The notes under the pieces were generated by a model. That model had not been told where the DNA came from and did no database searches. It saw only the letters and a program-made list of their open reading frames with translations. Position numbers and translations under genes: made by a program. From contig CACJRQ010000012.1 in NCBI GenBank assembly GCA_902595885.1, positions 1-33,641 of the forward strand: DNA of 33,641 bases, read 5' to 3'. The stretch comes from an uncultured Pelagibacteraceae bacterium (GTDB lineage Bacteria; Pseudomonadota; Alphaproteobacteria; Pelagibacterales; Pelagibacteraceae). This document shows, piece by piece, positions 1-17,363 of the stretch; the first letter of the stretch is position 1; every line of letters begins with the position of its first letter.

Positions 1-410
1 CTGAAGAAGATATAAAATTATATCAATCTCTAACTGAAAATGGGACAAAAATTCAACACATATGTTATGAACCAGAAGATTTAGATTTACTTTCCGATGT
101 ATTAAATAAAGGAAAAATATCTAAAGAAGGAACATGGTGTTTGTTTGTTATTGGTCACTACTCTGGAAAAATAAGTGATCCATATAAAATTCCATTATTT
201 TTAGATAAATTAAATAATAATAATTTAAATGCAGATTGGGCAGTTTGTGCTTTTGGTAAAGAAGAGATTGATTGTTTAAAAAAAGCTATAAGTTTAAATG
301 GAAAAATTAGGATTGGATTTGAAAATTCAATGCTAATGCCAAATGGCGAAATAGCTCCAAATAATCATACAAAAGTTAAGGCTGTTAAAGAGCTTTTAAA
401 TTTAAATTAA
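1..410 (+). CDS. Beta-keto acid cleavage enzyme (BKACE, DUF849), 3' part only
   Basis: The reading frame is open from position 3 and runs off the left edge, so only about 135 C-terminal residues are visible. The first in-frame TTG near 141 is internal, not a start. The C-terminal motif GFENSMLMPNGEIAPNN followed by a lysine/valine-rich helix matches the BKACE/DUF849 ending, usually of the type GLEDN...G.LApsNaelV. Known members are Zn-dependent TIM barrels that condense a beta-keto acid with acetyl-CoA and release acetoacetate plus a new CoA ester. The stop codon overlaps the convergent flavin monooxygenase gene by 9 nt. The catalytic N-terminal half is not in the window, so its substrate cannot be judged; its neighbours suggest a role in degrading an aromatic-derived keto acid. 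Family fairly sure, substrate unknown. Confidence 0.75.
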   Translation, partial: EEDIKLYQSLTENGTKIQHICYEPEDLDLLSDVLNKGKISKEGTWCLFVIGHYSGKISDPYKIPLFLDKLNNNNLNADWAVCAFGKEEIDCLKKAISLNGKIRIGFENSMLMPNGEIAPNNHTKVKAVKELLNLN

Positions 411-1859
411 TAATTTTAAATTTCTTTTTGTTATTAATTTAACATCTTTCAAGTTTTTAATTGATGCAAGAATAAATCTATCAGGTCTAACAATTAGACC
501 TTCACAATTTGCATTTTCTAAATATCTTGAAAGATTAGTATTACTTTTGTTTCTATAAAAGTTAATTTTATTTGATAATGATTGTTTGAATTTGTCTGAA
601 AGAACTAAAATTGGTTTTTTTGAAAATTTTATATCTAAATTTTTTCCATTATTTTTAAATTGTGGAAAAATGTTTCCTCTAAATTTATCGTTTGGCTTAC
701 CTAAACCACGTCCAAGCTTAGGTTTTATTGATTTCATACTTTTTCTACCTTTGCTATCTGCAGAAATATTATTAGTTATTGGAGATTTTCCTACTGCATT
801 TACAAATTCTCCCATACGCATCGTGGTTTCTATGTACTCTTTAACATTTGAAGATCTTTCAGATTGGTAAGTACTTAAAAGCTTATCATCATGTTTTTTT
901 CTTAAACAATGTGAAATCTTCCATGCAAGATTTGAAACATCTCTTATACCAGCACACATTCCTTGACCCATAAACGGTGGCATCAAGTGGGCCGCATCTC
1001 CAGCTAAAAAAATTCTCCCTTTTTTCCAACTTTTAGCTAGTGCTGATTGAAATGTGTATATTGTTTTTCTCTCCATTCGAGCTTCTTTTTTGTTAAGCCA
1101 AGGCTTTAAAAAATTCCAAATATATTTTTCAGAAAGAATAGTCTCTATTTTTTCAGTTTTTTTAATTGCAAACTCCCATCTTCTTCTTTTACCCACGTTT
1201 CTACAATAAGTAGCGGGTCTTGTAGGATTTGAATATTGAATAGTCCTGTCAGGTAAACTTTTCTTATTTTTATTTAATATTAAATCTATTACTGCCCATT
1301 TTTGAGTAAAACCAAGATTATTCATTTTTGTTTTCATTTGTGATCTTGTTATTGAATTAGCTCCATCACAACCAATTAAATATTTTGATTTTATTTCAAA
1401 TATTTTTTTTGAATTAATGTCTTCAAACCTGATATCTACATCATTTTTATTATTGATGATTTTTTTGACATTAGAACTTTGTTTAATCTCAACCTTTTTG
1501 TAAGATTTTAGTTTCTTTCTAAGTTCTCTTTCTAAATCAGGTTGGTTAAATCTATAACTAGGATACCATCCGTTCTCTGTAATTTCTCTTGGTCTTGGCC
1601 AATCTAAAATTACTCTATTTTTTTTATCAACAAACTTTGTTCCTTTATTAATTATTGTATGTTTTAAAAAAGTATTGGTTATACCAATTGTTTCAAACAC
1701 TCTCATAACCTCGTCATCAAAGTGTACTGCTCTTGGCAATGGATAAAAACTTTTTTCCTTTTCCAAAACTAAAATTGAAAAACCGTGTAGAGCTAATAAA
1801 TTTGCTAAAGTGCCTCCTGTTGGACCAAAACCTACAATTACAACATCATACTTTTTCAT
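402..1859 (-). CDS. FAD-dependent aromatic monooxygenase, MhpA/PheA type
   Basis: Group A flavoprotein hydroxylase of 485 residues, predicted cytosolic. It has an N-terminal FAD-binding Rossmann motif GFGPTGG (residues 10-16) and a following PRAVHFDDE stretch (42-50) typical of the MhpA branch. The DG motif is LIGCDGANS (161-169) and the GD motif RIFLAGDAAHLMPPFMGQG lies at 282-300. Enzymes of this family use NAD(P)H and O2 to ortho-hydroxylate a phenolic ring, giving a catechol. The protein is shorter than MhpA (about 550 residues), mainly in the C-terminal thioredoxin-like region, although the terminal IVRPDRFILAS element is kept. It lies 18 nt downstream of the extradiol dioxygenase gene on the same strand, which fits hydroxylation followed by ring cleavage. 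An AGGA ribosome-binding-like element sits upstream of the ATG. The exact phenolic substrate is inference. Confidence 0.85.
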   Translation of the reverse strand: MKKYDVVIVGFGPTGGTLANLLALHGFSILVLEKEKSFYPLPRAVHFDDEVMRVFETIGITNTFLKHTIINKGTKFVDKKNRVILDWPRPREITENGWYPSYRFNQPDLERELRKKLKSYKKVEIKQSSNVKKIINNKNDVDIRFEDINSKKIFEIKSKYLIGCDGANSITRSQMKTKMNNLGFTQKWAVIDLILNKNKKSLPDRTIQYSNPTRPATYCRNVGKRRRWEFAIKKTEKIETILSEKYIWNFLKPWLNKKEARMERKTIYTFQSALAKSWKKGRIFLAGDAAHLMPPFMGQGMCAGIRDVSNLAWKISHCLRKKHDDKLLSTYQSERSSNVKEYIETTMRMGEFVNAVGKSPITNNISADSKGRKSMKSIKPKLGRGLGKPNDKFRGNIFPQFKNNGKNLDIKFSKKPILVLSDKFKQSLSNKINFYRNKSNTNLSRYLENANCEGLIVRPDRFILASIKNLKDVKLITKRNLKLLI

Positions 1860-2914: not shown

Positions 2915-3925
2915 TTAGCCTTCTACAGCAGTGATGATTTCTCTTGCTCTATTTAGAACAGCATCACCGTCAAGACCTTTTCCGCTCATTTCTTTTAACC
3001 AATTAGACTCAATTGGTGCCAAGATTTTTTTGTATTCAGCAATAACATCATCTGAAGCAATTATAATTTCATGTCCATCTCTTTTTGAGATTTCATTTTT
3101 CATAATTGCATTTTGATTATCAATCAAACCTGACGCCCAGTCACCGAAAGCATGGCCGCTATATTTATTTATACAAGCCTGATCTCCTGCTGGTAAACTA
3201 TTGAATTTATCTTCATTCATAATTAAACCAAATGTAGCGTTAGTGATATTAACTTCAGTATGATACTTAGTTACATCAAACAATCTGAATGAACCTACAG
3301 CAGTGTATGGAAATGGGGTTCCATCTACAACACCTTTGCTTAAAGCTTCAGAAGTTCCTGGAGCAGGTACTTTCACTCCCGTTGCACCCAAAGTTTTTAA
3401 AATTGTTCCAGCAATTTTGCTTGGTACTCTCATCTTCTTACCTTTAAAATCTGCAGGTTTAACAACTTTAGTATCCTTCATATGAATTTGATATCCAGGA
3501 TTAGAGTGAAGACCAATTACTTTAATTCCAGCCATTTCTTTGTCTAAATATCCTTCGTTAAAAAGAGTATTTAAAGCTGTAGTTCCAGCTTTAGACGTTC
3601 TTGTAAGAAACGGTAATTCAATTACGGAACTTAAAGGAAATTGACCTCCAATATATCCTAAAACTGTCCATGAAATATCTGCAACACCTGATGTCACGAT
3701 ATCATATTGTTTAGGAGGACTTCCTAAAACTCCACCAGCATACATTTTTACATTTAATGTTCCCGAACATTGATTAACTTTTGTTGCCCAAGCTGCAAGA
3801 ATTTTACTTGCAATAAATGCTTTTGGTGGTTCAAAAGTTGCCAACTTAAGCTCAGTTGCAGAAGATGCATTAACTATACTGAAAGAAAAAATTCCAATAA
3901 TTAATCCAATTAATTTCTTTTTCAT
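2915..3925 (-). CDS. dctP: TRAP transporter periplasmic substrate-binding protein DctP
   Basis: Exported solute-binding protein of 336 residues. A Sec signal peptide occupies about residues 1-23 (MKKKLIGLIIGIFSFSIVNA, cleaving near SSA). The mature part has the DctP-family layout, including the conserved arginine in GKKMRVPSK (Arg166), which in characterised members salt-bridges the carboxylate of the ligand. The APGTSEALSKGVVDG segment precedes the family's usual alpha/beta core. It should deliver an organic acid to the DctQM membrane pair encoded divergently at 4901-6693. It lies 50 nt downstream of the FAH-family gene on the same strand, with a strong AAGGGGAT ribosome-binding site about 7 nt before the ATG, consistent with high expression of a binding protein. 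Two cysteines (Cys53 and one near residue 257) might form a disulfide. The ligand is unknown; the neighbouring ring-cleavage genes suggest an aromatic acid. Confidence 0.93.
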   Translation of the reverse strand: MKKKLIGLIIGIFSFSIVNASSATELKLATFEPPKAFIASKILAAWATKVNQCSGTLNVKMYAGGVLGSPPKQYDIVTSGVADISWTVLGYIGGQFPLSSVIELPFLTRTSKAGTTALNTLFNEGYLDKEMAGIKVIGLHSNPGYQIHMKDTKVVKPADFKGKKMRVPSKIAGTILKTLGATGVKVPAPGTSEALSKGVVDGTPFPYTAVGSFRLFDVTKYHTEVNITNATFGLIMNEDKFNSLPAGDQACINKYSGHAFGDWASGLIDNQNAIMKNEISKRDGHEIIIASDDVIAEYKKILAPIESNWLKEMSGKGLDGDAVLNRAREIITAVEG

Positions 3926-6693: not shown

Positions 6694-8277
6694 TTACCAA
6701 ACACCAATCATGATACCATCATCTTTAGTGTAATCTCTTTCTTTAGTTACAAACTCATCAGTAGCCGCAACTCTATTTTTTCTATCTATAATCCTTTTTA
6801 AAAGTAATTCTTTCATTTCTTCTCTAATCTTTGAATGTTTTTCAGATTTACCCAAATCATTAAATTCGTCAGGATCATTTTTCAAATCAAATAGTTGCGG
6901 CTCAAATCCTTTGTAATAAATATACTTCCAGTCACTATTCCTTATCATAAAAGCTCTTGCATCTGATGCTCCTATGTTCAGAATTTTTCTTGCTTCATTA
7001 AAAGCATAGTCAATTTCACTAAAAACAAATTCTTTCCAATCTTTAGTGCTTTCGCCTTTCAATAATGGAATTAAAGAATTTCCCTCTAGTCTATGTTTAC
7101 TAACTGGACTTTCTACTGCATCCATAAAAGTTGGGAGCAAATCTATTGCTTCAATAAATCTTTTTTCTTTTGTTCCTCTAGTTTTATTTGCATATTCACT
7201 TGGATCATAAATAATCATTGGAACTCTAACTGACTGCTCGTGAAATAATTCTTTTTCTCCCAACCAATGATCACCTTGGTAATCTCCATGATCGGAGGTA
7301 AAAATGATCATAGTATCTTCCATATGACCTGATTCCTCTATAAATTTAAATAACCTTCCTAAGTTATCATCAATTTGCTTAATCAATCCCATATATCCTG
7401 AAAGCACTGTATTTCTTACTTCATCTTTTGAAAAAGTTTTGGAAATACTATTTTCCATAAATGCTTTGTAAACTGGGTGATCATTGTTTCGTTCTGCATT
7501 GTTTCTGTGAACAGGATAAAATTCATTAGCAGAATACATATTGTGATAAGGAGCTGGTGCCATATAGGGCCAATGAGGTTTAATATAAGATAAATGCAAA
7601 AACCATGGTTTATCTTTACTTTCTTCTATAAATTCCATTGCTCGATTAGTCATGAAAGCTGTTTCAGAATGCTCTTCTGGAATTCTAGCAGGCTTATTAG
7701 AATTTCTTAATCGCCAACCACTCAATATCTCACCATTTTCTCCCTCAGCAGAATTTGCCCAATCATTCCAAGGATTAGGTCCATCATATCCAAGTTTATT
7801 TAACCACTCATTATAGGATAAAGTTTTTTTTGAATTTTTAATTTGATTATTTGGATGAAGTCCATCATCTCTTTCATAAGGATCAAAACCTGGTTCACTG
7901 ACAATCAATCCTATTTCAGTATCTTTTGTAATACCAAGTCTATTCATACCATCTAAATCTGGTCTCATATGAGTTTTTCCAACAACGCCGGTTCTTATTC
8001 CTGATTGGCGCAGATAATCTCCAATAGTTAATTCTCCAATTGGAAGTGGAACCTGGTTCCAAGTTGATCCATGACTAAAAACTGTTCTACCGGTGTAGTA
8101 AGATGCTCTAGAAGGGCCACATACAGGTGATTGAACAAAAGCAGATTCAAATTGAACTCCTTTTTTCGCTAAACTATCAATGTGTGGAGTTTTCAAATGA
8201 GGATGACCATAACAAGATAGATAATCCCATCTCAATTGATCAGCCATTATAAAAAGAATATTTCGAATTTTATTCAT
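6694..8277 (-). CDS. Sulfatase / phosphonate monoester hydrolase family protein
   Basis: Alkaline-phosphatase-superfamily hydrolase of 527 residues. The nucleophile motif is CGPSR (Cys53 in PVCGPSRASYYTGR), a CxPSR motif whose cysteine must be oxidised to formylglycine. Metal ligands visible are Asp13-Gln14 (FIMADQLRWD) and Asp329-His330 (FTSDHGDYQGDHW); Lys101 and His103 lie in VGKTHM. The stretches ARIPEEHSETAFMTNRAMEF and KPHWPYMAPAPYHNMY resemble bacterial phosphonate monoester hydrolases more than arylsulfatases. It has no signal peptide, so it acts in the cytosol. It lies 19 nt downstream of the exported glycoside-hydrolase-like gene on the same strand, so it may be the last gene of that long operon rather than part of the convergent TRAP set. 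It may act on sulfate, phosphonate or phosphodiester substrates. No formylglycine-generating enzyme is in the window. Confidence 0.85.
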   Translation of the reverse strand: MNKIRNILFIMADQLRWDYLSCYGHPHLKTPHIDSLAKKGVQFESAFVQSPVCGPSRASYYTGRTVFSHGSTWNQVPLPIGELTIGDYLRQSGIRTGVVGKTHMRPDLDGMNRLGITKDTEIGLIVSEPGFDPYERDDGLHPNNQIKNSKKTLSYNEWLNKLGYDGPNPWNDWANSAEGENGEILSGWRLRNSNKPARIPEEHSETAFMTNRAMEFIEESKDKPWFLHLSYIKPHWPYMAPAPYHNMYSANEFYPVHRNNAERNNDHPVYKAFMENSISKTFSKDEVRNTVLSGYMGLIKQIDDNLGRLFKFIEESGHMEDTMIIFTSDHGDYQGDHWLGEKELFHEQSVRVPMIIYDPSEYANKTRGTKEKRFIEAIDLLPTFMDAVESPVSKHRLEGNSLIPLLKGESTKDWKEFVFSEIDYAFNEARKILNIGASDARAFMIRNSDWKYIYYKGFEPQLFDLKNDPDEFNDLGKSEKHSKIREEMKELLLKRIIDRKNRVAATDEFVTKERDYTKDDGIMIGVW

Positions 8278-8296
8278 AAGTTAAAAAATAACTTAT

Positions 8297-9310
8297 CTAA
8301 AATTCTAAAGTTTTTGAAGACCCATCTTTATAAGTGAACTCTACTTTTTTTTCTGAAATACTTTTAATTGATGTAAAACCATCATATTCGGCAATAAATT
8401 CGTTTAATTTTTTTCTACCTTTTTTACTCATTTTTGGACCTGGAGCATTTACACCAACATCAATGATTAATTCAGCACCATTTAAAAAAGCATTGACCCA
8501 AGCTTTTACCGGTGGACCACAAGTCATTGCTTCTGTTAACCAAATAGGTTTATTTATATCTACACTTTTTAGTAACGAAGCAAATTCATCTACCCAAAGT
8601 TCTTTATCACATTGTCCATCTGGACCACTTATGTGATGAATATTTGCTATATCAAAATGATCCTTAATTTTTGGTAAAACAGATTTCCAATACCTTTTAT
8701 TTTCTGGAAACATTCCTGCAGCTCCTGCCATAACAATTACCGCATCATTTTGTTTTTCTTTAATTACTTTTGATGAAAAATTAAAAATTTCAATAAAATC
8801 CTCTTTGCTCCCTTTAAAAAACATTTTAAATTCTGGTTCATTCATTACATCCCAATATTTTATCGGTTTAGTTAATCCAGGCATATCATTTGAACCATCA
8901 CCATCATAACGATCTACTAATTTTATAAGAAAATTTTTATAATCATCCATTGAACAAGGCTTGCTTAAATATTTTGTAAAACGTTTTCCAAATGGACTTT
9001 TGGCTTTTTTTCTTTTGCAAGATTTTTGCTCCCAATTTGCATGAGGCCAAATAGTAGCTAAAATTGTTTGATTATTTTCTTGAGCATAAACAACATATTT
9101 GTCAGTTTCTTCCCAATTAAATTTTCCCTTTTCTTTTTCAATGTGATTCCAAATAAAAGGCCCTGGATGTGGCCTAACCCATTGATCATTTTTTCCTCTC
9201 ATTTTCTCATCACGTATTTCAGTGAGCTCACCAAATCTTGAATCGGAAAATGAACTGCTTAAAATAGAAAAAATAATTAGAGAATTAATTAAAATAATTT
9301 TTTTAATCAC
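8297..9310 (-). CDS. Exported glycoside hydrolase-like TIM-barrel protein (clan GH-A type)
   Basis: 337 residues with an N-terminal Sec signal (MIKKIILINSLIIFSILSSS, cleavage near FSDS). The layout is that of a clan GH-A (beta/alpha)8 hydrolase: WNHIEKEKGKFNWEETDKYV resembles the first strand-helix units of GH39/GH5-like enzymes. A probable acid/base Glu158 lies in YWDVMNEPEF and a probable nucleophile Glu260 in KPIWLTEAMT. An IHHISGPDG element lies between them. No carbohydrate-binding module or anchor is visible. It lies 11 nt downstream of the methionine-rich protein gene and 19 nt upstream of the sulfatase-like gene, so it is part of the exported-protein operon. I cannot assign a GH family or a substrate; a pseudo-enzyme with only the fold is possible but both glutamates are present. 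Confidence 0.68.
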   Translation of the reverse strand: MIKKIILINSLIIFSILSSSFSDSRFGELTEIRDEKMRGKNDQWVRPHPGPFIWNHIEKEKGKFNWEETDKYVVYAQENNQTILATIWPHANWEQKSCKRKKAKSPFGKRFTKYLSKPCSMDDYKNFLIKLVDRYDGDGSNDMPGLTKPIKYWDVMNEPEFKMFFKGSKEDFIEIFNFSSKVIKEKQNDAVIVMAGAAGMFPENKRYWKSVLPKIKDHFDIANIHHISGPDGQCDKELWVDEFASLLKSVDINKPIWLTEAMTCGPPVKAWVNAFLNGAELIIDVGVNAPGPKMSKKGRKKLNEFIAEYDGFTSIKSISEKKVEFTYKDGSSKTLEF

Positions 9311-9321
9311 ATCATTAAAAA

Positions 9322-11748
9322 TTATTTTGGACCTGGGTCTCCACCACCTGGGCCTTCTGGACCTCCAGGACCCCCTGGGCCTTCTGGACCTCCAGGACCG
9401 CCTGGTCCACCTGGTCCACCTTCACCTCCCATTGCTCCTTCAACTGCTCCACCAATGTCACCCATTGGGCCTCCATCAGGTCCACCCATAGGTCCCATGT
9501 CACCCATTGGACCCATATCACCTGGACCTCCAGGGCCTCCGGCCATTGCACCTGCCATAGCTCCACCCATTGTTCCAGACATACCTTCTTGCATAGCGCC
9601 GCCCATGGCTTTACCCATGTCGCCTTCACCCATTCCACCAACTCCCATGGCAGCACCCATTGCATGTGAGCCCATAGCTGAAGCTGCAGCTCCTTGAGCA
9701 GACATAGCTGCTCCCATAGCTGCACCCGCTAAACCACTTCCTGCTTCTCCTGCTGCCATTGCAGCACCTGCTACTGAGCCCATAGCTTTTCCTGGATCAA
9801 CTCCAGTGCCCATTGCTGCAGATACTTGACTTAAATTCATTCCACCTTTCATTGCACCATCTAAACCTTCAGGACCTCCAGCCATTATATCTCCTAATTT
9901 GGCTCCTCCAGGCCCTCCTGCTATTCCCATGCTTGCTGCCATTTCAGGATTTATTTCAGCATTTAAATTCATATCTCCCATTCCAGTCATACCACCACTC
10001 ATTGCAGCTAAACCCATGTCGCCACCTTGCATTCCCATTGCTCCACTTAACTCTTTCATTCCTTCTGCGCCCATAGCTGCCATTGTTCCTTGGTTTACTA
10101 ATCCTATTTCCATCATATCACCCATCATTCCAGCAGACATATCTCCTGCTTTAGCCATGTTGGCTATTCCTTGTACAGCTTTACTTCCAAGTCCAGCAAC
10201 ATTTGTTGACATAACTGAAGTAATGTCCATACCAGCCATTCCTGCAGCACCCATACTCGCTACCATTCCAGGTGTTAATCCAGTCTGAGCAGCCATATCT
10301 GCCATTCCTAATTTATCCATTGCTCCTACATCCATTCCAGTCATACCTGCTATAGCTACTCCCATTTGAGCTTTGCCCATATCTTGCATTACAGCACCCA
10401 TCATCATTCCCTCTGCTGGCGCGTTGCCTGAAAGCATTGAACCCATTGCTTTCGCTGTCATTCCTTCTGGAGGAGCCATTGCTCCTGGTAAACCCCCAGC
10501 TAAAGAAGGTTTTGCCATAACCATGGCACCCATCATCATTCCTGACTCGCTTATATTCTCAGGCATTTCTATGGCTTGAGGTCCTTTTTCAGACATGCCA
10601 TTAGCAAATGAATCTTTTATCTCCGCACCTTTTTGTATTGCATTTTTTTCTTTAGGAGCTTTACCTGAAATTGCTTGGCTTATCATTCCAACTGTACCGG
10701 ACATAGCCGCAGTAATTCCGACTTCTGGGTTTGCAAAAGCAGTTGATAAAGATTTTGCAACATTTTCCATTCCCATATCTGCCATTGCCTTTCCAATTTC
10801 TTTCATTCCTCCAACTCCACTCATGTTTTGAGCCATATCTGCCATTCCCTGTATTCCAATATTACCTTCCATACTTTTCATCATGTCTGCACCCATCCCT
10901 TTTGAAGTCATAGTGGCAACAATTGCTCCTGTCATTGTTTGACCCATTTGACCCATTGCTTCAGGGTTAGCAGCAAGTGTTTCTAGTGCAGCTGTTGCTG
11001 CACCAACTGGAAGAGCTTCTAAAGCTCCAGCCATCATAGAAGGATTCATTCCCATTTCAGCTACATTCATGGAAGCAAAGTCTCCAGGATTAAAATTTGT
11101 CATATCAAAATTTGCTGAACCTGTTATTGATTTCATATCTACCATTCCAGCACCTGCAAGTCCTTCCATAGCAGCGCCCATTCCAATTCCTTGAGCATCA
11201 AGAGATCCCATCATTCCCTTGGCATCAAATCCTGCTGTATTGAGTGCATTCATCTGTCCAGCCATTTTTTGTAATGCAACAACTTTTCCAGCACCCATTT
11301 GGCCAGCAATGCTTGACAAAGCTGCCATTTCCTCTGGAGAAAAATCTTTTGAAAAATCAATACCAGACATATCTAATGCAGTTGGGTCTGGTATAGCTCC
11401 TAATGCCATATCAGTAACACCCTCAACTAAAGACATGGCTTGTACTGCAGATGTAATATCTCCTTTTGCTAAACTTTCTGTAGCAAACTTCATTGCATTT
11501 TCAGCTTGAGCAATAGATGCGTCTAATGCCTTACCTATGTCACTTTTGGCCTCTCCTAAAGCCTCAGTTGCACCAGCTATATTTTCTGCTACTTTACCAG
11601 CATCATTTGCTAGTTGATCAGCAGCAGCTTGTGCTGAACTACCCGCTGCATCTGAAATACCTGCCATTGATTCAATTTCATTTGCGTTTGAGGAAAAACT
11701 AAAAATTAAAATGAATATTAAAAAACTTTTTATAATTAATTTTTTCAT
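9322..11748 (-). CDS. Exported methionine/glycine/alanine-rich low-complexity protein with collagen-like tail
   Basis: 808 residues. A Sec signal peptide (MKKLIIKSFLIFILIFSFSS, cleavage near NANE) is followed by an Ala-rich, probably helical stretch (about 25-125). A very long region follows in which Met recurs every few residues, often as GM, AM, MMG or MGxxG. The last 80 or so residues are Gly-X-Y-like (GGPGGPEGP repeats, GPMGDMGPMGG), resembling collagen. I count about 109 Met by hand (about 13 percent), and no Arg, Cys, Trp or Tyr, with one His. I recognise no domain. The gene is much more GC-rich than its neighbours because of Gly/Ala codons, and it leaves long spurious frames open on both strands. 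Its start overlaps the upstream CxxC gene stop by 1 nt. A structural fibre, matrix, metal-binding or oxidant-scavenging role is possible; none is shown. Confidence 0.8.
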   Translation of the reverse strand: MKKLIIKSFLIFILIFSFSSNANEIESMAGISDAAGSSAQAAADQLANDAGKVAENIAGATEALGEAKSDIGKALDASIAQAENAMKFATESLAKGDITSAVQAMSLVEGVTDMALGAIPDPTALDMSGIDFSKDFSPEEMAALSSIAGQMGAGKVVALQKMAGQMNALNTAGFDAKGMMGSLDAQGIGMGAAMEGLAGAGMVDMKSITGSANFDMTNFNPGDFASMNVAEMGMNPSMMAGALEALPVGAATAALETLAANPEAMGQMGQTMTGAIVATMTSKGMGADMMKSMEGNIGIQGMADMAQNMSGVGGMKEIGKAMADMGMENVAKSLSTAFANPEVGITAAMSGTVGMISQAISGKAPKEKNAIQKGAEIKDSFANGMSEKGPQAIEMPENISESGMMMGAMVMAKPSLAGGLPGAMAPPEGMTAKAMGSMLSGNAPAEGMMMGAVMQDMGKAQMGVAIAGMTGMDVGAMDKLGMADMAAQTGLTPGMVASMGAAGMAGMDITSVMSTNVAGLGSKAVQGIANMAKAGDMSAGMMGDMMEIGLVNQGTMAAMGAEGMKELSGAMGMQGGDMGLAAMSGGMTGMGDMNLNAEINPEMAASMGIAGGPGGAKLGDIMAGGPEGLDGAMKGGMNLSQVSAAMGTGVDPGKAMGSVAGAAMAAGEAGSGLAGAAMGAAMSAQGAAASAMGSHAMGAAMGVGGMGEGDMGKAMGGAMQEGMSGTMGGAMAGAMAGGPGGPGDMGPMGDMGPMGGPDGGPMGDIGGAVEGAMGGEGGPGGPGGPGGPEGPGGPGGPEGPGGGDPGPK
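9347..9399 (-). repeat. 27-bp tandem repeat encoding GGPEGPGGP units
   Basis: The 26-nt sequence beginning CCTGGGCCTTCTGGACCTCC occurs at 9347-9372 and again at 9374-9399 with no mismatch, giving a period of 27 bp (nine codons). It encodes the repeated nonapeptide of the collagen-like tail. Related shorter Gly-Pro repeats continue to about 9540. Such repeats can expand or contract by slippage. Confidence 0.85.
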
Positions 11749-12419
11749 TACTGTTTTGTTTCTTCAATTTTTTCTTGTGCTTTAATTGTTGCTGCTCTTT
11801 GAGCATTTACTTTAGCAGTAGCAATTTGTTTTTTTAAATTTGCTAAAACGGCTGCTCTTTCGGTTACCTCAGGAGTTAACTGTTTATTTTTCTTTTTCTT
11901 TTTCTTTTTATTTTTTTTATGCGCCGCATAAAGCATTTTCCCGGTTGCCCAAAATTTCAAAACTGCCTCAGAGGACTTTGCTTTCGGAGAAATATTTAAA
12001 CTCATCCTCATTGCCTCTCTACCCTTTTTTAATCCTTCAAGAGTTTCAACTTTGGCTTTTTTATCATTAAGCATTTCATTAAATAATGCCTCGAAGTAGG
12101 CCATATCTCTTATCATATGGTGTTGATATTTGTTTAACGAACTTTTTCCTTTAACAAATCTCTGATAAACTTTTTTTCCTGCCTCGCCTTGTTTTTGTTT
12201 ACTTTTAATTAAACTTTCATGAAACATTCCCTCTGGGTAATCTATTTTTTCATAAATAAATGCTGAAGGTCTTTCACTTTCGGGCCAATCACCTAACTTT
12301 TCATACTTTTTACAGTAAATGCAGTCTTTTTCTTTTTTATCTTTTTTCTTTGCTGCCTCTAGATTTGAGATGGAAAAAATAATTATTAAAAATAAAATTA
12401 ATAATTTAAAAATTGTTAT
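11748..12419 (-). CDS. Exported CxxC, lysine-rich protein; start codon unclear
   Basis: The only in-frame ATG (12225-12227) would give 159 residues, but the frame stays open 5' of it and encodes an obvious signal peptide (TIFKLLILFLIIIFSISNLE, cleavage near AAKK). A CIYC motif and a WPESERPSAFIYE segment follow. This frame has no ATG, GTG or TTG between the upstream TAG (12447-12449) and the signal peptide. The end given here uses an ATA codon (12417-12419); an ATT at 12411-12413 is the alternative. Alternatively a one-base insertion separates it from an ATG at 12457-12459 (peptide MKGLARRIW in the other frame). The protein, about 221-223 residues, is highly basic with a poly-Lys run (KKNKKKKKKKNK) and a helical Ala/Lys-rich C terminus. 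Its stop overlaps the methionine-rich gene start. I recognise no family. Confidence 0.6.
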   Translation of the reverse strand: MTIFKLLILFLIIIFSISNLEAAKKKDKKEKDCIYCKKYEKLGDWPESERPSAFIYEKIDYPEGMFHESLIKSKQKQGEAGKKVYQRFVKGKSSLNKYQHHMIRDMAYFEALFNEMLNDKKAKVETLEGLKKGREAMRMSLNISPKAKSSEAVLKFWATGKMLYAAHKKNKKKKKKKNKQLTPEVTERAAVLANLKKQIATAKVNAQRAATIKAQEKIEETKQ

Positions 12420-12573
12420 GGTAGATTTACTACCAAATGCGCCTGGCTAAACCTTTCATAAATAAAGCGTACACCTAATTGTCGCACTAAAAAAGCTTTT
12501 ATAAATAAGTGAAAACAACTTTTATTAAAATTTTATTCAACTCTTAATTGTAAAGAATTATTTAATTTTTTTT
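12420..12573. other. Intergenic region upstream of the CxxC gene, with a 9-codon open frame
   Basis: This AT-rich gap between the lyase-like gene and the CxxC gene holds a minus-strand ATG at 12457-12459 that reads MKGLARRIW and stops at a TAG, in the frame one base off from the downstream signal peptide. A short stem GGTAG-TAAAT-CTACC sits just before the candidate ATA start. A 10-bp palindrome AAAAGCTTTT is present near 12489-12498. I see no convincing sigma-70 promoter here and no strong terminator after the lyase-like gene. Confidence 0.45.
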
Positions 12574-13413
12574 TTATTTATGATTTTTAAATTTCTCTTC
12601 TTTTTTTGGTTTTCTAAAAACTATACTATCTAAATAAACTCTTTGATCTGGCAAACTTTCCCAATCAGAATTCCAATATCCAATTGTACGATGTCTATAA
12701 ATTCCAAATTTCATATACCCGCCAGTGCAAGTATCAGCTAAAGTTTTTATATTTTTAAGATCTGCGATAACTTCATCATTTTTATAAATTTTAAATCTAC
12801 CTGTCTCATCCAATTTCCAAAGAACATGAAACTTAAGGTGTGTCCATTTTCCTTTTAAATCCTCAATTTTTCCAATAACAACAGGTTCAGATGAATAGGC
12901 TGCTTTGCTAGCCCAGCTATAATAATGTTCCCCTTTATATTTAAAATCTTGAGCCCAAAAATGACAACAACTATGACAACCTTTTGCTTTGTTGTCAGTA
13001 TGCATCTGTCCAATTATTACGACAGCACCTTTTTTTAAAGGTTCATAAGTTTCATCAAAATAAACAGCGTACTCAAAAATATGCTCCTTATTTTTAAGTT
13101 TCATATCACCCAAATTTAATTCTTGCCTACTTCTATTGCCCTTACCATCACATTGAATTTGAGTAGTTTGTGCTTTTCCTGTGCCGCAACCTGCATCTTC
13201 TCTATTTACTGTAACTTGAATACTTGTTTTTCCCTCATATACTGGAAATCCCTCTGATGCTTTTACTTCTATAATTCTATTTACTTTTTTTTTATGCATA
13301 GAAATAAATTGCTTTTTATAGCCCTTAATATCTTTGAATTTAACTTTGTGGCCATCTGAAAATGCTGTGCCAGAAAATAATATAAATGAAATGATTAATA
13401 TAATTTTGTTCAT
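12574..13413 (-). CDS. Exported polysaccharide lyase-like jelly-roll protein
   Basis: 279 residues with a Sec signal (MNKIILIISFILFSGTAFSD, cleavage near SDG). The features RSRQELNL, KWTHLKFHVLWKLDETGRF and GGYMKFGIYRHR in this order match the heparin-lyase-I/glucuronan-lyase-like beta jelly-roll family (Pfam Polysacc_lyase type). There, the W..h.kfhv.Ws...G and y.K.GiYR elements mark the concave sheet. Six cysteines, including a GCHSCCHF cluster, suggest disulfides in the periplasm or outside the cell. The start overlaps the stop of the upstream serine hydrolase gene by 4 nt (ATGA). The product is probably a secreted uronate-polymer binder or lyase; the substrate is unknown and catalytic residues are not proven. 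Confidence 0.68.
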   Translation of the reverse strand: MNKIILIISFILFSGTAFSDGHKVKFKDIKGYKKQFISMHKKKVNRIIEVKASEGFPVYEGKTSIQVTVNREDAGCGTGKAQTTQIQCDGKGNRSRQELNLGDMKLKNKEHIFEYAVYFDETYEPLKKGAVVIIGQMHTDNKAKGCHSCCHFWAQDFKYKGEHYYSWASKAAYSSEPVVIGKIEDLKGKWTHLKFHVLWKLDETGRFKIYKNDEVIADLKNIKTLADTCTGGYMKFGIYRHRTIGYWNSDWESLPDQRVYLDSIVFRKPKKEEKFKNHK

Positions 13414-14714
13414 TTACCTTTTTTAAATGGATCGTACAGTAGTTTTTTGTGATTATATTTATATTTTTTATTATTATAATGGAGTGAATTAACAACCAGT
13501 ATTCTTGAATTTTCTACATCAATTAAAATCATATTCCCACCATAGCCACCCATACCAAATATAATTTTGTCTTTTAATCCTGGAAAATCCATATGAAATT
13601 GACCCCCGTATGATTTTGTACGATTAAATAAGGGCTCTTCTTTTTCTTTGCTTCCTTTTGGTATTCTTCTTTCGTAAATCTCTTTTAAATATTTTCCAAC
13701 ACAAGTACCATTCTGATAATCGTCCATTATAGCTTTTGCAATTCTAAGATAGTCAAATCTCGTTGCCATTATGTTAGGATGTCCATTTCCCCAATTTTCA
13801 TTTAAACTAGTGTAGCCATAACGAATGCTATTTTTGATCTTTATTTTATCGTTGAAAACTTTGCTATAAAATTTGTCATAATCTTCACCAATTTTAAATT
13901 TCATATAGTTTAAAATTAACTGAGTGACAAATCCATTGTAATTGTATCTTTCCTTAGATTTTTTTGTATTTTCGTTGTTAAAGAAAGAGCGCATGGTTGT
14001 TGCAATATCTCTATCTTCATATGCACCTAATTTACTAGTACCATCTTCAAACTCATCGATATATTTTTGATCACCAGTATTCATGTTTAAAAAATTAATT
14101 AATTTTTGATCATGATAAAGTGAATCTTTTATTATAGGCCAGTCATTTACTCTAGCATCAACTCCTTCAATATAGCCCTCACATATGGCATGACCTACTA
14201 AATAAGAAGTTACTGACTTACCCATCGACATTGAATAAAATTTTGTTTCATTATTCAAAAACTCTCCCAGTCTTTCTTTTGGAGAAAATTCGTCAATTAA
14301 TACTTCACCATCTTGATAATATAAATAACTAAGGATACCTTTGGTTTTCATTTGCTTTTTTACAGTTTTCGTTTGCTTTTTTATAAATTCATCCTCAATT
14401 AAGTTGAATTTAAAATCGTAGGAACTATTTGTTGGTTTAAACTCTTTTAAATGTTGACTTCTATCTCTATATGAATATTTCCATAAATAATAAATCAGCG
14501 TATCTCTGTTTGGGTTTGAATGATAGGCAATATTAGTAGCTGAAAACGCTTTATTTTCTATTTTGATATTTAGATTGTGAGATCCTTGCTCATTTAAATA
14601 TTGATGATGTCCGTTTTCAGAAAGCCACTTACTAAAAAACCAATTTAATCTCTCAGCAAATGAATTGCTTGAAGTTAATAAACTTAAAGTAATGACTAGT
14701 AATATTTTTTTCAT
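13410..14714 (-). CDS. Exported serine hydrolase, beta-lactamase class C/penicillin-binding fold
   Basis: 434 residues with a Sec signal peptide (MKKILLVITLSLLTSSNSFA). The nucleophile motif SxxK is Ser163-Met-Gly-Lys166 in FYSMSMGKSVTSYL. A tyrosine in RYNYNGF lies where the second-motif Tyr of this family is expected, and the late GMGGYGGNMILIDV segment fits the third active-site strand. The family includes esterases, 6-aminohexanoate-dimer hydrolases and D-aminopeptidases as well as beta-lactamases, so antibiotic resistance should not be assumed. It overlaps the downstream lyase-like gene by 4 nt and follows the DUF1501 gene by 6 nt, so it belongs to the same transcript. It probably hydrolyses an ester or amide on an extracellular or periplasmic polymer; that role is inference. 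Confidence 0.8.
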   Translation of the reverse strand: MKKILLVITLSLLTSSNSFAERLNWFFSKWLSENGHHQYLNEQGSHNLNIKIENKAFSATNIAYHSNPNRDTLIYYLWKYSYRDRSQHLKEFKPTNSSYDFKFNLIEDEFIKKQTKTVKKQMKTKGILSYLYYQDGEVLIDEFSPKERLGEFLNNETKFYSMSMGKSVTSYLVGHAICEGYIEGVDARVNDWPIIKDSLYHDQKLINFLNMNTGDQKYIDEFEDGTSKLGAYEDRDIATTMRSFFNNENTKKSKERYNYNGFVTQLILNYMKFKIGEDYDKFYSKVFNDKIKIKNSIRYGYTSLNENWGNGHPNIMATRFDYLRIAKAIMDDYQNGTCVGKYLKEIYERRIPKGSKEKEEPLFNRTKSYGGQFHMDFPGLKDKIIFGMGGYGGNMILIDVENSRILVVNSLHYNNKKYKYNHKKLLYDPFKKGK

Positions 14715-14720
14715 AATAAA

Positions 14721-15869
14721 TTAAGCTTTAAAAAGCTTATCCGATAAATTTGGTAAATTCTCTCCCCAAAATACTTCTTTAGTAATTTTTTTAAAATCTA
14801 CGTCAAAGACTGCAGACATTGCAGAAGCATAAATTGCTCTAGAGTCTATTGTAGAATTTAAATCTCTTCCTTCAAATAATTCCTTTTTCTTTAATCCTGG
14901 CCAATCCGTGTAGACTTGTGCTTTTTTAACAAGTCCTCCTGCCATTAGAATGGCTGAACCGTAACCATGCTCTGTACCATTACTACTGTTCTGCTTAATT
15001 GTTCTTCCAAACTCTGTTAGGGTTAAAACTAAAGTATTCTTAAATGCCTCTTCAGACATTGATGATTTAAGAGACCTAATGATATTATCATAATCACTTA
15101 AGCAATCAGCATGAGCGCCATCAGTTGCTCCTTGCGCAGCATGCGTGTCGAAACCATCCACTTCAAATACTGCAACTTTAGGGCCATTTGGTTTTGATAA
15201 CTCGGTACCAGCACTTGAAGCTAAAATCCAAGCATCATCTCTTGATCTATTATTAAAATCTCTATTTAGGATTATTTCTAAATTATCACTTAACAGCTTT
15301 TCATCATGTTCTTTGTAAGCTTGTTTTATTAATTCTAGAGTGTCAGGATATGGAAGACTACGACCTACAGGAAAATAATTATTGTTCATTGGAACCCCTC
15401 TAATTAATAAAGGCATTGGTAGAGCTAAAGCTAATCCCTGTCCTGTTAATCCAGCTACTTTCATTCCTCTTCCGAGCCAACCTGTTTTTTCTTGGTAAGG
15501 TATTTTACCTCCAGACTCCATTAAATTTTGACCATCAAAGTGTGATCTTCCAGTATAAGGGATATTTGTTGCATGAACTGCAGCACTTAAATTTTGATCC
15601 CAAAGACCTTTGAATGTTTTTAATGCTGGGTGTAAATCAAAATCTGATGTTAATTTTAAAGTTCTTTCAAGATTAATTTTGCTTCTTAATTTTTCAAAAT
15701 TCTTATCACCTTTAATTGGAATTGCACACAAACCATCCATTCCTCCACGTAACATAATTATTACTAAATTTTTTTTTGTTTGCGAGGCATAAGCTGGTGC
15801 TCCAAAACCAGCAAAATATAATGACGTTAAAGCTGTAGTTTTTAAAAAATTTCTTCTTGATATTTTCAT
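14721..15869 (-). CDS. DUF1501 family protein, Tat-exported
   Basis: 382 residues beginning with a twin-arginine signal (SRRNFLK at residues 4-10, hydrophobic stretch, AYAS cleavage site near 29), so it is probably exported folded, perhaps with a bound metal. Family hallmarks are KNLVIIMLRGGMDGL near the N terminus, YTGRSHFDGQNLMESG, EVDGFDTHAAQG and LVLTLTEFGRTIKQNSSNGTEHG. DUF1501 has an alkaline-phosphatase/sulfatase-like fold and the Asp/His-rich motifs are consistent with metal ligands, but its reaction is unknown. It overlaps the DUF1800 gene by 4 nt; DUF1501-DUF1800 adjacency is a widespread conserved pairing in bacteria. Confidence 0.9.
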   Translation of the reverse strand: MKISRRNFLKTTALTSLYFAGFGAPAYASQTKKNLVIIMLRGGMDGLCAIPIKGDKNFEKLRSKINLERTLKLTSDFDLHPALKTFKGLWDQNLSAAVHATNIPYTGRSHFDGQNLMESGGKIPYQEKTGWLGRGMKVAGLTGQGLALALPMPLLIRGVPMNNNYFPVGRSLPYPDTLELIKQAYKEHDEKLLSDNLEIILNRDFNNRSRDDAWILASSAGTELSKPNGPKVAVFEVDGFDTHAAQGATDGAHADCLSDYDNIIRSLKSSMSEEAFKNTLVLTLTEFGRTIKQNSSNGTEHGYGSAILMAGGLVKKAQVYTDWPGLKKKELFEGRDLNSTIDSRAIYASAMSAVFDVDFKKITKEVFWGENLPNLSDKLFKA

Positions 15870-17302
15870 GCCTTTAAAAACTCCGGGTGATTAAAAAGCA
15901 AAGTATGTTTTTCAATAGACCTATTTTTTTGATTTATGTATTTCATTATTTTATTTGGATTGTCGAAATTTTTTTCAACCATTTCTTCATAATATGTAGT
16001 ATTTTTATTGTTTTCCATTTTAGCAAAATTATGACTTGCTTTTGCATATACAAGTCTTCTGATTAATAATTCTGGTGAAATCCAATCATCAGAATGGTCT
16101 GACCAACCATTTGGTTGTTTTGCTCTGTAAGGATGATGACCAATATTTCTCAAAAGTCGCTCTGGTTCTCGATGTGAACCAAACGGTTTTTGACCTAGCT
16201 CATATTTATCCATTAGATCTGGTGATGGCGGCCAATTAAGATCTGCAATTTTAGCAACTTGAATCAGCCAATTCTCAGGTGTCTGAAATTTTTTATATTT
16301 ATCATTATATTCAAAAGCTACTTTAATTGCAGCCTTATGTATTTCTGGCAAATGTCCGTCAGATTTTTTGAAAGCGTCAATAATCGGCTGCTTCATCTCT
16401 TTTGTAGGTTCATCTGTGATTAAAAATCTACATAGTCTTTCTGCAACAAAATCTCTACAGTTAGGATGATTTACTAAATCTTTAATAACAACAGCTAATG
16501 CTTTTTTACCTTTTTTATATTCTTTTCCCAAAACATTTTTTTTACCTCTTTGATGATATTCGGAATTAAACCAGACATTACCTGTTTCTAAATTTTTTTT
16601 ACTCCATCTATGTTGCCAGCCAGTCATAATATATGCTAATTGAATTACATCTTCCTGGGAATAACCAGCTTTTGGAGAAACTGTATGGAGTTCTAAAAGT
16701 TCTCTTGCATGATTTTCATTAATGGTTGCAGGTTCTTTTTTTCTTCTTCTCCACTCTTCACTTGCTGTAACACTTTTAGGTCCAGCACTCTCACTATTAT
16801 CTAGATGATGAATCATAGCCCAGGAAGTAGTCACATCATAAACCATTTTCTCAAATGTTTGATTTAAATTTGGTCGAATAATTTCTCTTTGGTAAGGACC
16901 AGTTGAGTAATTTGCTAAAAAATCTTTTTCACTTATTGCAAAAAAATTTCCCCAAAACATCCATAATTTTGCTAAAACTGGATGACTACTATTAATTCCT
17001 TCATTATGTCTAATCGAAATTTCTAGAGACTCCCAAAACTTTTGACCAGTTTTATGTCTCAGTATATCTTTGTGAGTTTTATATAGAGTTTTATTATCTT
17101 TATATTTTTTTCTTAAAACTTTTCTGTCTCCATAAACCCAATCTCTATAATGTTTTCTTAATTCTTTCTCTGAATGTATTTTTCCTTTCCAAGATAATTC
17201 TGGAACCTTATCCAACTGTATTAAAGCCCAATTTAGAGGATCTGTTGGAATTTTCTCGTTAGGTCCAATACCAAAGGCAACTTTTCTAAAATAATTCTTC
17301 AT
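15866..17302 (-). CDS. DUF1800 family protein
   Basis: About 478 residues from the ATG at 17300-17302. A longer frame from a GTG at 17353 would add 17 residues (MASLVVLTC...) but would begin only a few bases from the predicted transcription start, so the ATG giving MKNYFRKVAFGIGPNEK is preferred; an AAGGGA lies about 13 nt upstream of it. Family motifs are FGIGPNEKIP at the start, HPVLAKLWMFWGNFFA, NENHARELLELHTVSPKAGYSQEDV and HPNCRDFVAERLCRFLI. DUF1800 function is unknown; it nearly always sits next to DUF1501 as here (4-nt overlap). No clear signal peptide is seen, unlike most of the operon. It is the first gene after the promoter-like site at 17364-17391. Confidence 0.9.
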   Translation of the reverse strand: MKNYFRKVAFGIGPNEKIPTDPLNWALIQLDKVPELSWKGKIHSEKELRKHYRDWVYGDRKVLRKKYKDNKTLYKTHKDILRHKTGQKFWESLEISIRHNEGINSSHPVLAKLWMFWGNFFAISEKDFLANYSTGPYQREIIRPNLNQTFEKMVYDVTTSWAMIHHLDNSESAGPKSVTASEEWRRRKKEPATINENHARELLELHTVSPKAGYSQEDVIQLAYIMTGWQHRWSKKNLETGNVWFNSEYHQRGKKNVLGKEYKKGKKALAVVIKDLVNHPNCRDFVAERLCRFLITDEPTKEMKQPIIDAFKKSDGHLPEIHKAAIKVAFEYNDKYKKFQTPENWLIQVAKIADLNWPPSPDLMDKYELGQKPFGSHREPERLLRNIGHHPYRAKQPNGWSDHSDDWISPELLIRRLVYAKASHNFAKMENNKNTTYYEEMVEKNFDNPNKIMKYINQKNRSIEKHTLLFNHPEFLKA

Positions 17303-17363
17303 GTATATTATGTTGTCCCTTGATTTACAAGTCAGCACAACCAGACTTGCCACATGAAATAAA

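Follow-up and report, generated by a model that had tools for sequence, protein, structure and literature searches.

The window analysed here is a stretch of 33,641 nucleotides from an uncultured Pelagibacteraceae bacterium (assembly GCA_902595885.1, contig CACJRQ010000012.1, positions 1 to 33,641), and its subject is a pair of adjacent genes encoding a methionine-rich exported-type protein, called B, and a basic exported-type partner, called A, which lies directly upstream (Table 1). The stop codon of A overlaps the start codon of B by a single base (TAATG). An earlier note, made from the letters of the window, had estimated that B contains about 109 methionines, or about 13% of its residues, and lacks Arg, Cys, Trp and Tyr; exact counting bears this out, giving 109 Met (13.49%), 162 Gly, 142 Ala, 54 Ser, 36 Lys and a single His, with Arg, Cys, Trp and Tyr at zero. 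The N-terminus, judged by eye, is hydrophobic and continues into SNA/NE in the manner of a signal peptide, as expected of the exported protein that the note described. Across 660 open reading frames (ORFs) of at least 250 residues from the fetched loci, a background that includes overlapping loci and antisense frames, the median Met content is 2.7%; when ORFs with more than 30% Gly plus Ala are removed, the 591 that are left hold 2.6% +/- 1.4 Met, and the highest values among them belong to truncated copies of the B gene itself.

Table 1. Positions of the genes, domains and candidate signals discussed in the text
Feature	Position	Strand	Remark
Met-rich exported-type protein B	9322..11748	minus	808 aa, translated ORF
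Signal peptide of B	residues ~1-22		by eye
Conserved N-terminal domain of B	residues ~37-190		part common to paralogues
Met/Gly/Ala-rich region of B	residues ~190-730		
Gly/Pro-rich tail of B	residues ~730-808		
Partner A, basic exported-type protein	11748..12446	minus	signal-peptide frame open from 12446
ORF of A with ATG	11748-12227	minus	
CxxC of A	~12312-12323	minus	
Conserved element ATGAAAGGTTTAGCCAGGC	12441..12459	minus	18/41 partner frames
Candidate start codon of the element	12459-12457	minus	
Candidate +1 site GCC AGG C	12447-12441	minus	would feed the partner frame
GH10-like exported-type protein	8297..9310	minus	next gene downstream of B; 20.9 bits, just under the cut-off of 22.1

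A gene pair with two forms of B

B is a true, strange and selected protein, and its family has no catalogued relative in the libraries searched. No Pfam family scored above its cut-off, NCBIfam and PHROGs gave no match at E 0.1, the best PDB profile reached an E-value of only 0.066, and a Rfam scan of positions 9000-13000 at E 1 was empty. The earlier note had allowed for a misassembled or non-expressed frame should homologues be missing; a scan of named genomes recovered 44 distinct B loci, all titled Pelagibacteraceae and 11 of them titled as metagenome-assembled genomes, and an artefactual frame is ruled out by these homologous records together with purifying selection. Most of the 44 records carry AG-type isolate names, which we take to denote single-cell genomes. 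In a first search of 200 genomes, ten had matched, including the window's own; seven of these carried a Met-rich relative at 75-84% identity (two cut by contig ends), and the other two were G080, at 36% identity, and G054, with distant N-terminal matches only. The genomes of that search (G handles) and the named records (L handles) overlap, the proteins of L002 and L080 looking alike at 840 aa each, and the two sets are not summed. A phage origin was rejected, as the patterns used picked up nothing related to either protein among viral contigs.

Forty of the 44 records are Met-rich, with 11-16% Met, and four (L083, L084, L085 and L087; 736-764 aa) represent a second form, referred to as ILVN, with about 3% Met, about 26% Ile plus Leu plus Val, and 9-11% Asn. 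Cys and Trp are absent from all 44, with Arg at 0-3 and Tyr at 0-4. The scarcity of Arg, Cys, Trp and Tyr is thus shared by the form with 3% Met and is independent of Met richness, so that these traits, which the earlier note had listed together, do not form a single signature. By eye, the B protein of L009 (ILVN form) shows repeated cassettes such as S-L-I-T-S-N-A-x-A-E-T-L-G, unseen in the Met-rich form.

The pairing of the two genes is constant. Four of the 44 contigs begin inside B, and A stands directly upstream of B in all 40 named loci with enough contig, the four ILVN loci included, with the partner frame interrupted in two (L073 and L086). A profile of the partner matches 39 of 397 genomes of the family, in 4 of 14 genera (one match, G386, being marginal), and 23 of 297 genomes of the order, all in family f1. 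In relatives the two proteins can be fused, and the partner domain is followed by the B domain in 10 of 10 long partner ORFs tested, with E-values for the B domain from 2.6e-24 to 1.1e-6 and no match among 11 controls; an eleventh long ORF, from L101, was left out of this test, B being a separate gene there. Proteins that are fused in some genomes usually make contact where they are separate, which would suggest that A and B do so. Their net charges, in four sequences each, are +20 to +31 for A and -45 to -68 for B. Beyond the orthologues, the B proteins that follow A range from 317 to 1648 aa and resemble the B of the window in the N-terminal domain alone, distant relatives aligning to residues ~47-187. 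G073, G458, G477 and G496 each hold further members of the family besides Met-rich B, so that the members are not simply alternatives to one another.

An AlphaFold2 model of A is mostly helical, with a mean predicted local distance difference test (pLDDT) score of 83.7 and a predicted template modelling score of 0.67. Searches with this fold were uninformative (Foldseek E no better than 1.5; VIA Z at most 5.4, over 41 residues), the best PDB profile for A reached an E-value of just 0.063, and its ORF in the window matched nothing in Pfam at E 1; the L007 orthologue had no match over cut-off in Pfam or NCBIfam, its PHROG matches being weak (best E 0.031). A C-x-Y-C motif near the mature N-terminus of A is kept in Met-rich and ILVN clades, and the three paralogue partners in the alignment lack it. 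Among non-Met-rich B proteins, those of L091, L092, L099, L102, L107, L108, L115 and L124 end in a short C-terminal Cys motif (for example CTDGTC, CGNGGRTC or CGEPSC), and CTGxC occurs near the end in L095, L096, L105, L109, L114 and L125; the B proteins of L089, L090, L100 and L104 are without a terminal Cys motif, and the Met-rich B of the window has no Cys at all. The coiled-coil paralogue L089 matched SMC and tape-measure models, with SMC scores far under the cut-offs, and these matches are read as no more than coiled-coil similarity.

Conservation and origin of the methionines

In an alignment of 25 Met-rich and four ILVN sequences, these 29 being picked for spread from a total of 45, conservation stands at 92% in the Met columns of the Met-rich form, of which 63 of 105 are invariant across the 25 sequences; the corresponding conservation is 92% for Leu, 88% for Gly, 86% for Ala, 84% for Val and 70% for Ile. 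While the Met columns are held in this way, fourfold degenerate sites differ by 55% on average between the window copy and the other 24 sequences, which lose 1-18% of the ATG codons each and change ATG to ATA in 1.2% of cases on average, a change that AT-rich genomes should favour. As judged from these comparisons, Met in B is kept by purifying selection, and the selected function that the earlier note had deduced from the cost of such a protein gains support. A sulfur store, which the note had also listed, need not keep so many Met columns invariant, and this option is not supported.

The strongly conserved Met columns are occupied in the ILVN form by Leu (28%), Ile (27%), Met (15%) and Val (13%). 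Over residues 26-215, 14 outgroup paralogues contain 2.3% Met, 23% Ile plus Leu plus Val, 6% Ala and 3% Gly; the ILVN form, at 2.5, 28, 9 and 5%, is close to this composition, and the Met-rich form stands at 8.0, 16, 21 and 12.5%. Because the outgroup composition lies close to that of the ILVN form, the Met/Ala/Gly composition looks derived within the Met-rich lineage.

Such a composition might also arise from the use of cheap residues or from a local mutational bias. The Met-rich form holds about 4.0 carbon atoms per residue against 4.5 in the ILVN form, and 1.11 nitrogen atoms against 1.17-1.21, and its GC content at third codon positions (GC3) is slightly higher (0.20-0.29 versus 0.16-0.20). 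However, the Met-rich form is mostly longer, so that the totals per protein are about equal (3227 carbon atoms in the window copy versus 3284-3448, and 898 nitrogen atoms versus 863-924) and nothing is saved, while sulfur rises from 22-25 atoms in the ILVN form to 109 in the window copy. GC3 also stays low although the overall GC content of the coding sequence is 0.41-0.49, and Met is under purifying selection. An explanation by resources or mutation is accordingly the most improbable of those considered here.

A candidate frameshift at the start of A

The start of A is unusual in part of the lineage. Forty-one partner frames were read, from the 40 loci and the window, and 18 of them open with Pro-Gly right after a TAG stop and lack an ATG, GTG or TTG ahead of codon index 28, so that no such codon precedes the signal peptide's end; of the other frames, 19 have an ATG within the first 17 codons, three are cut by contig ends and one is broken. 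Sister clades such as that of L052 have a plain ATG start. In the 18 frames, whose choice by the Pro-Gly opening after the stop accounts in part for the conservation of CC-GG and of the stop, the commonest base of an 18-position block (-13 to +4) is found in 17.1 of the 18 sequences on average, versus 11-12 in the flanks, and TTAGCCAGG is identical in all 18. In the window, the element reads ATG AAA GGT TTA GCC AGG C, with AAAGG resembling a Shine-Dalgarno sequence, and TTTAGCCAGGY occurs as a single copy in the window's genome (assembly 84% complete). In every one of the 18, a zero-frame ATG (at the same place in 15, further upstream in three) opens a frame that stays free of stops as far as GCC AGG C, where a shift by +1 would lead into the frame of the signal peptide. 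Both codons of this site, GCC and AGG, are used rarely by the genes of the window, at 3.8 and 2.5 per 1000 codons respectively, and a hairpin of -7 kcal/mol or lower follows the site in 8 of the 18, including the window, where it shows compensating changes.

These features make the start of A in 18 of the 41 frames look like a programmed +1 frameshift, as far as sequence comparison can tell. Initiation at a non-AUG codon would be another way to open the frame, but no near-cognate codon was seen to be shared by the 18 frames. Were translation of A to begin at a downstream ATG, which in the window is codon index 73, the product would have no signal peptide; against such a start, the part upstream of it, from DC-x-YC onward, is kept from clades that have the block to clades that lack it. 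The best comparison is prfB, whose programmed +1 frameshift is described, in excerpts of the two sources, as using a Shine-Dalgarno-like stimulator and the site CTT TGA C with its stop codon (PMC12421855, PMC3711429). The gene of A resembles prfB in having the AAAGG upstream of the slip site, in the +1 direction and in the position near the gene start, and by analogy AAAGG could serve as an internal Shine-Dalgarno sequence; it differs in that GCC AGG C contains a rare sense codon rather than a stop, and in being predicted from sequence. If true, the frameshift would extend the few kinds of bacterial recoding.

Proposed role and setting of A and B

A and B are read here, tentatively, as an exported two-protein unit in which B is an oxidation-tolerant, Met-faced structural or coating polymer. 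Basic A (~200 aa) and the N-terminal domain of acidic B would bind each other, and the long C-terminal part of B would be a variable functional extension, which in the window's lineage may take the form of a polymer of Gly, Ala and Met, flexible and for the most part helical, that ends in a Gly/Pro tail and serves as structural or coating material of the periplasm or the cell surface. The pairing, the fusions and the charges are the basis for proposing an exported polymer or coat that docks on A. We further infer that Met, in replacing Ile, Leu and Val at hydrophobic positions of B, was selected because thioether faces would stay flexible and, in sunlit surface water, would either withstand oxidation or recover from it. 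Among the options listed in the earlier note, a flexible hydrophobic fibre fits best.

The note had described the methionines as regularly spaced, and against local shuffles of the window B the spacing proves only weakly periodic. Met pairs at i+1 and i+2 are depleted (by 2.1 and 3.1 standard deviations (SD), with 6 pairs at i+2 versus 16 expected), those at i+3 are at chance level (18 versus 16), and those at i+4, i+14 and i+22 are mildly enriched (+2.4 to +2.5 SD); Fourier analysis of four Met-rich sequences puts the power of Met between 80 and 100 degrees at 1.5 to 4 SD above expectation. The pattern weakly resembles that of helix faces. Such faces, on a Gly-rich background, could hold varied hydrophobic clients or ligands, as the Met bristles of SRP54 do, and B would then be a chaperone or scavenger; B matched no SRP54 or chaperone family in Pfam, NCBIfam or the PDB profiles, and a role as a broad hydrophobic binder appears quite unlikely. 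Binding of Cu(I) or Ag(I) by thioethers, with B as a periplasmic metal buffer, was one of the note's options and would suit a Met-rich, exported-type protein with enriched i+4 pairs. It is weakened by the depletion of MM and MxM, by the single His and the lack of Cys, and by the Met columns themselves, which are mostly Leu, Ile or Val in the ILVN form and hence behave as hydrophobic positions; the copper genes that the note had suggested looking for are absent from the eight neighbouring proteins scanned, and i+3 pairs stand at chance. CusF and CueO, periplasmic copper proteins that use Met, have defined metal sites in folded proteins, according to an excerpt of one account (PMC9302797). B shares with these proteins the periplasmic or exported setting and the thioethers. 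The MxM or MxxM clusters of periplasmic Cu(I) Mets-motif proteins, often accompanied by His or Cys, are lacking in B, and metal binding is considered very unlikely.

As the main role of B, an antioxidant function is a more serious competitor, though still an improbable one: B would be a sink for photochemical oxidants at the envelope, either sacrificial or recycled by the methionine sulfoxide reductase MsrPQ. An exported-type protein with 109 Met, one His and no Cys, Trp or Tyr suits this role, and genes for MsrP (465 bits against a cut-off of 207) and MsrQ (170 bits against 130) are present in the window's genome. Both lie on another contig (C14, the window being C12), and the reductase genes that the note had suggested as neighbours are found neither next to B nor anywhere in the window. 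MsrP is present in 9 of 17 Met-rich carriers, in none of one ILVN carrier and in 7 of 20 non-carriers (genomes listed without a partner match, all at least 96% complete), and in 6 of the 9 carriers that are at least 90% complete; these counts, compared without a statistical test, are a hint at most of co-occurrence with B. MsrA and MsrB, found in 138 and 121 of 150 genomes, are too common to inform, and PF00174, the family that contains MsrP, is present in 25 of the 150. Against the sink stand the carriers without MsrP, the scarcity of Cys, Trp and His that is common to the form with 3% Met, and the fixed positions of the methionines, since a sink needs Met content and not Met position. MrpX of Azospira suillum, a small protein encoded with its methionine sulfoxide reductase, is a known relative of this idea; B is likewise exported-type and Met-rich, with MsrPQ in the same genome, but has 808 residues, a constant basic partner and no adjoining reductase, and MsrP is missing from several carriers.

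Several results weigh against the polymer or coat that we favour, or against parts of it. In a tree of the N-terminal domain, a weakly supported branch (50/99) sets the Met-rich rows apart, and the ILVN rows have 75/4, so that the polarity of the change rests on the outgroup composition. At the 12 N-terminal Met columns, 33 of the 148 outgroup letters are Met, and two partner columns are Met in the outgroup and without Met in the ILVN form; not every Met difference is therefore a gain in the Met-rich lineage. High Met conservation is not unique to B, being found in neighbours too (0.99 in the GH10-like protein and 0.97 in the partner, with a lower 0.66 in PMT2). The hydrophobic periodicity of B is mixed: the sum of Met, Ile, Leu, Val and Phe additionally peaks at 130-140 degrees (+3.0 to +5.2 SD in the same four sequences), and the periodicity is thus not purely helical. 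The AlphaFold2 model of B has a mean pLDDT of 48, by which helices and packing are weakly supported. Finally, G004 (96% complete), G432 (92%) and G298 (90%) are carriers without MsrP, which means that repair by MsrP is not required. A more elaborate version of the proposal, in which a SAR11 lineage turned the hydrophobic Ile, Leu and Val of B into Met and so obtained an extracytoplasmic thioether material (an oxidation-responsive fibre, coat or condensate) docked on A, with part of the lineage reaching A by the +1 frameshift at GCC AGG C, is doubtful.

Two further comparisons can be drawn. Eukaryotic Met-rich low-complexity domains, such as those of ataxin-2/Pbp1 and TDP-43, are similar in being Met-rich and of low complexity and in the possibility of redox-sensitive self-assembly; they are intracellular, unlike the exported-type B with its fixed Met columns. 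Gly-x-y runs near the C-terminus of B bring to mind bacterial collagen-like proteins, which have a long uninterrupted region of this kind. The longest run of the window's B spans 10 triplets and that of L078 spans 30, the range being 3-30 across the 25 Met-rich sequences and 3-4 in the four ILVN sequences; in many B orthologues the run is short or lies elsewhere. Literature searches gave no paper on a large extracellular protein of Pelagibacter and, on Met-rich proteins of SAR11, a single one, on BONCAT.

Of the 44 named loci, 26 have the GH10-like gene, some contigs being too short to reach it; all four ILVN loci are without it, the contig of L085 ending 578 bases past B. Given this patchy presence, it is treated as a neighbour and is probably not part of the A-B unit. 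Positions 6694-17353 of the window hold sulfatase, GH10-like and PF14099 polysaccharide-lyase-like genes and a DUF1501/DUF1800 pair, with a content that varies between loci; such a gene set is unusual for SAR11.

'Candidatus Pelagibacter ubique' is described, in an excerpt of one study, as lacking assimilatory sulfate reduction and relying on reduced sulfur (PMC5069961). Relatives of this sulfur-dependent organism nonetheless encode an exported-type protein with more than 100 Met. The Met-rich and Ile-Leu-Val-rich orthologues, a natural pair with the same partner, make the question of why Met was chosen directly testable, and the A-B family, which includes fused proteins and of which the libraries searched hold no named member, opens up an envelope system of abundant ocean bacteria.
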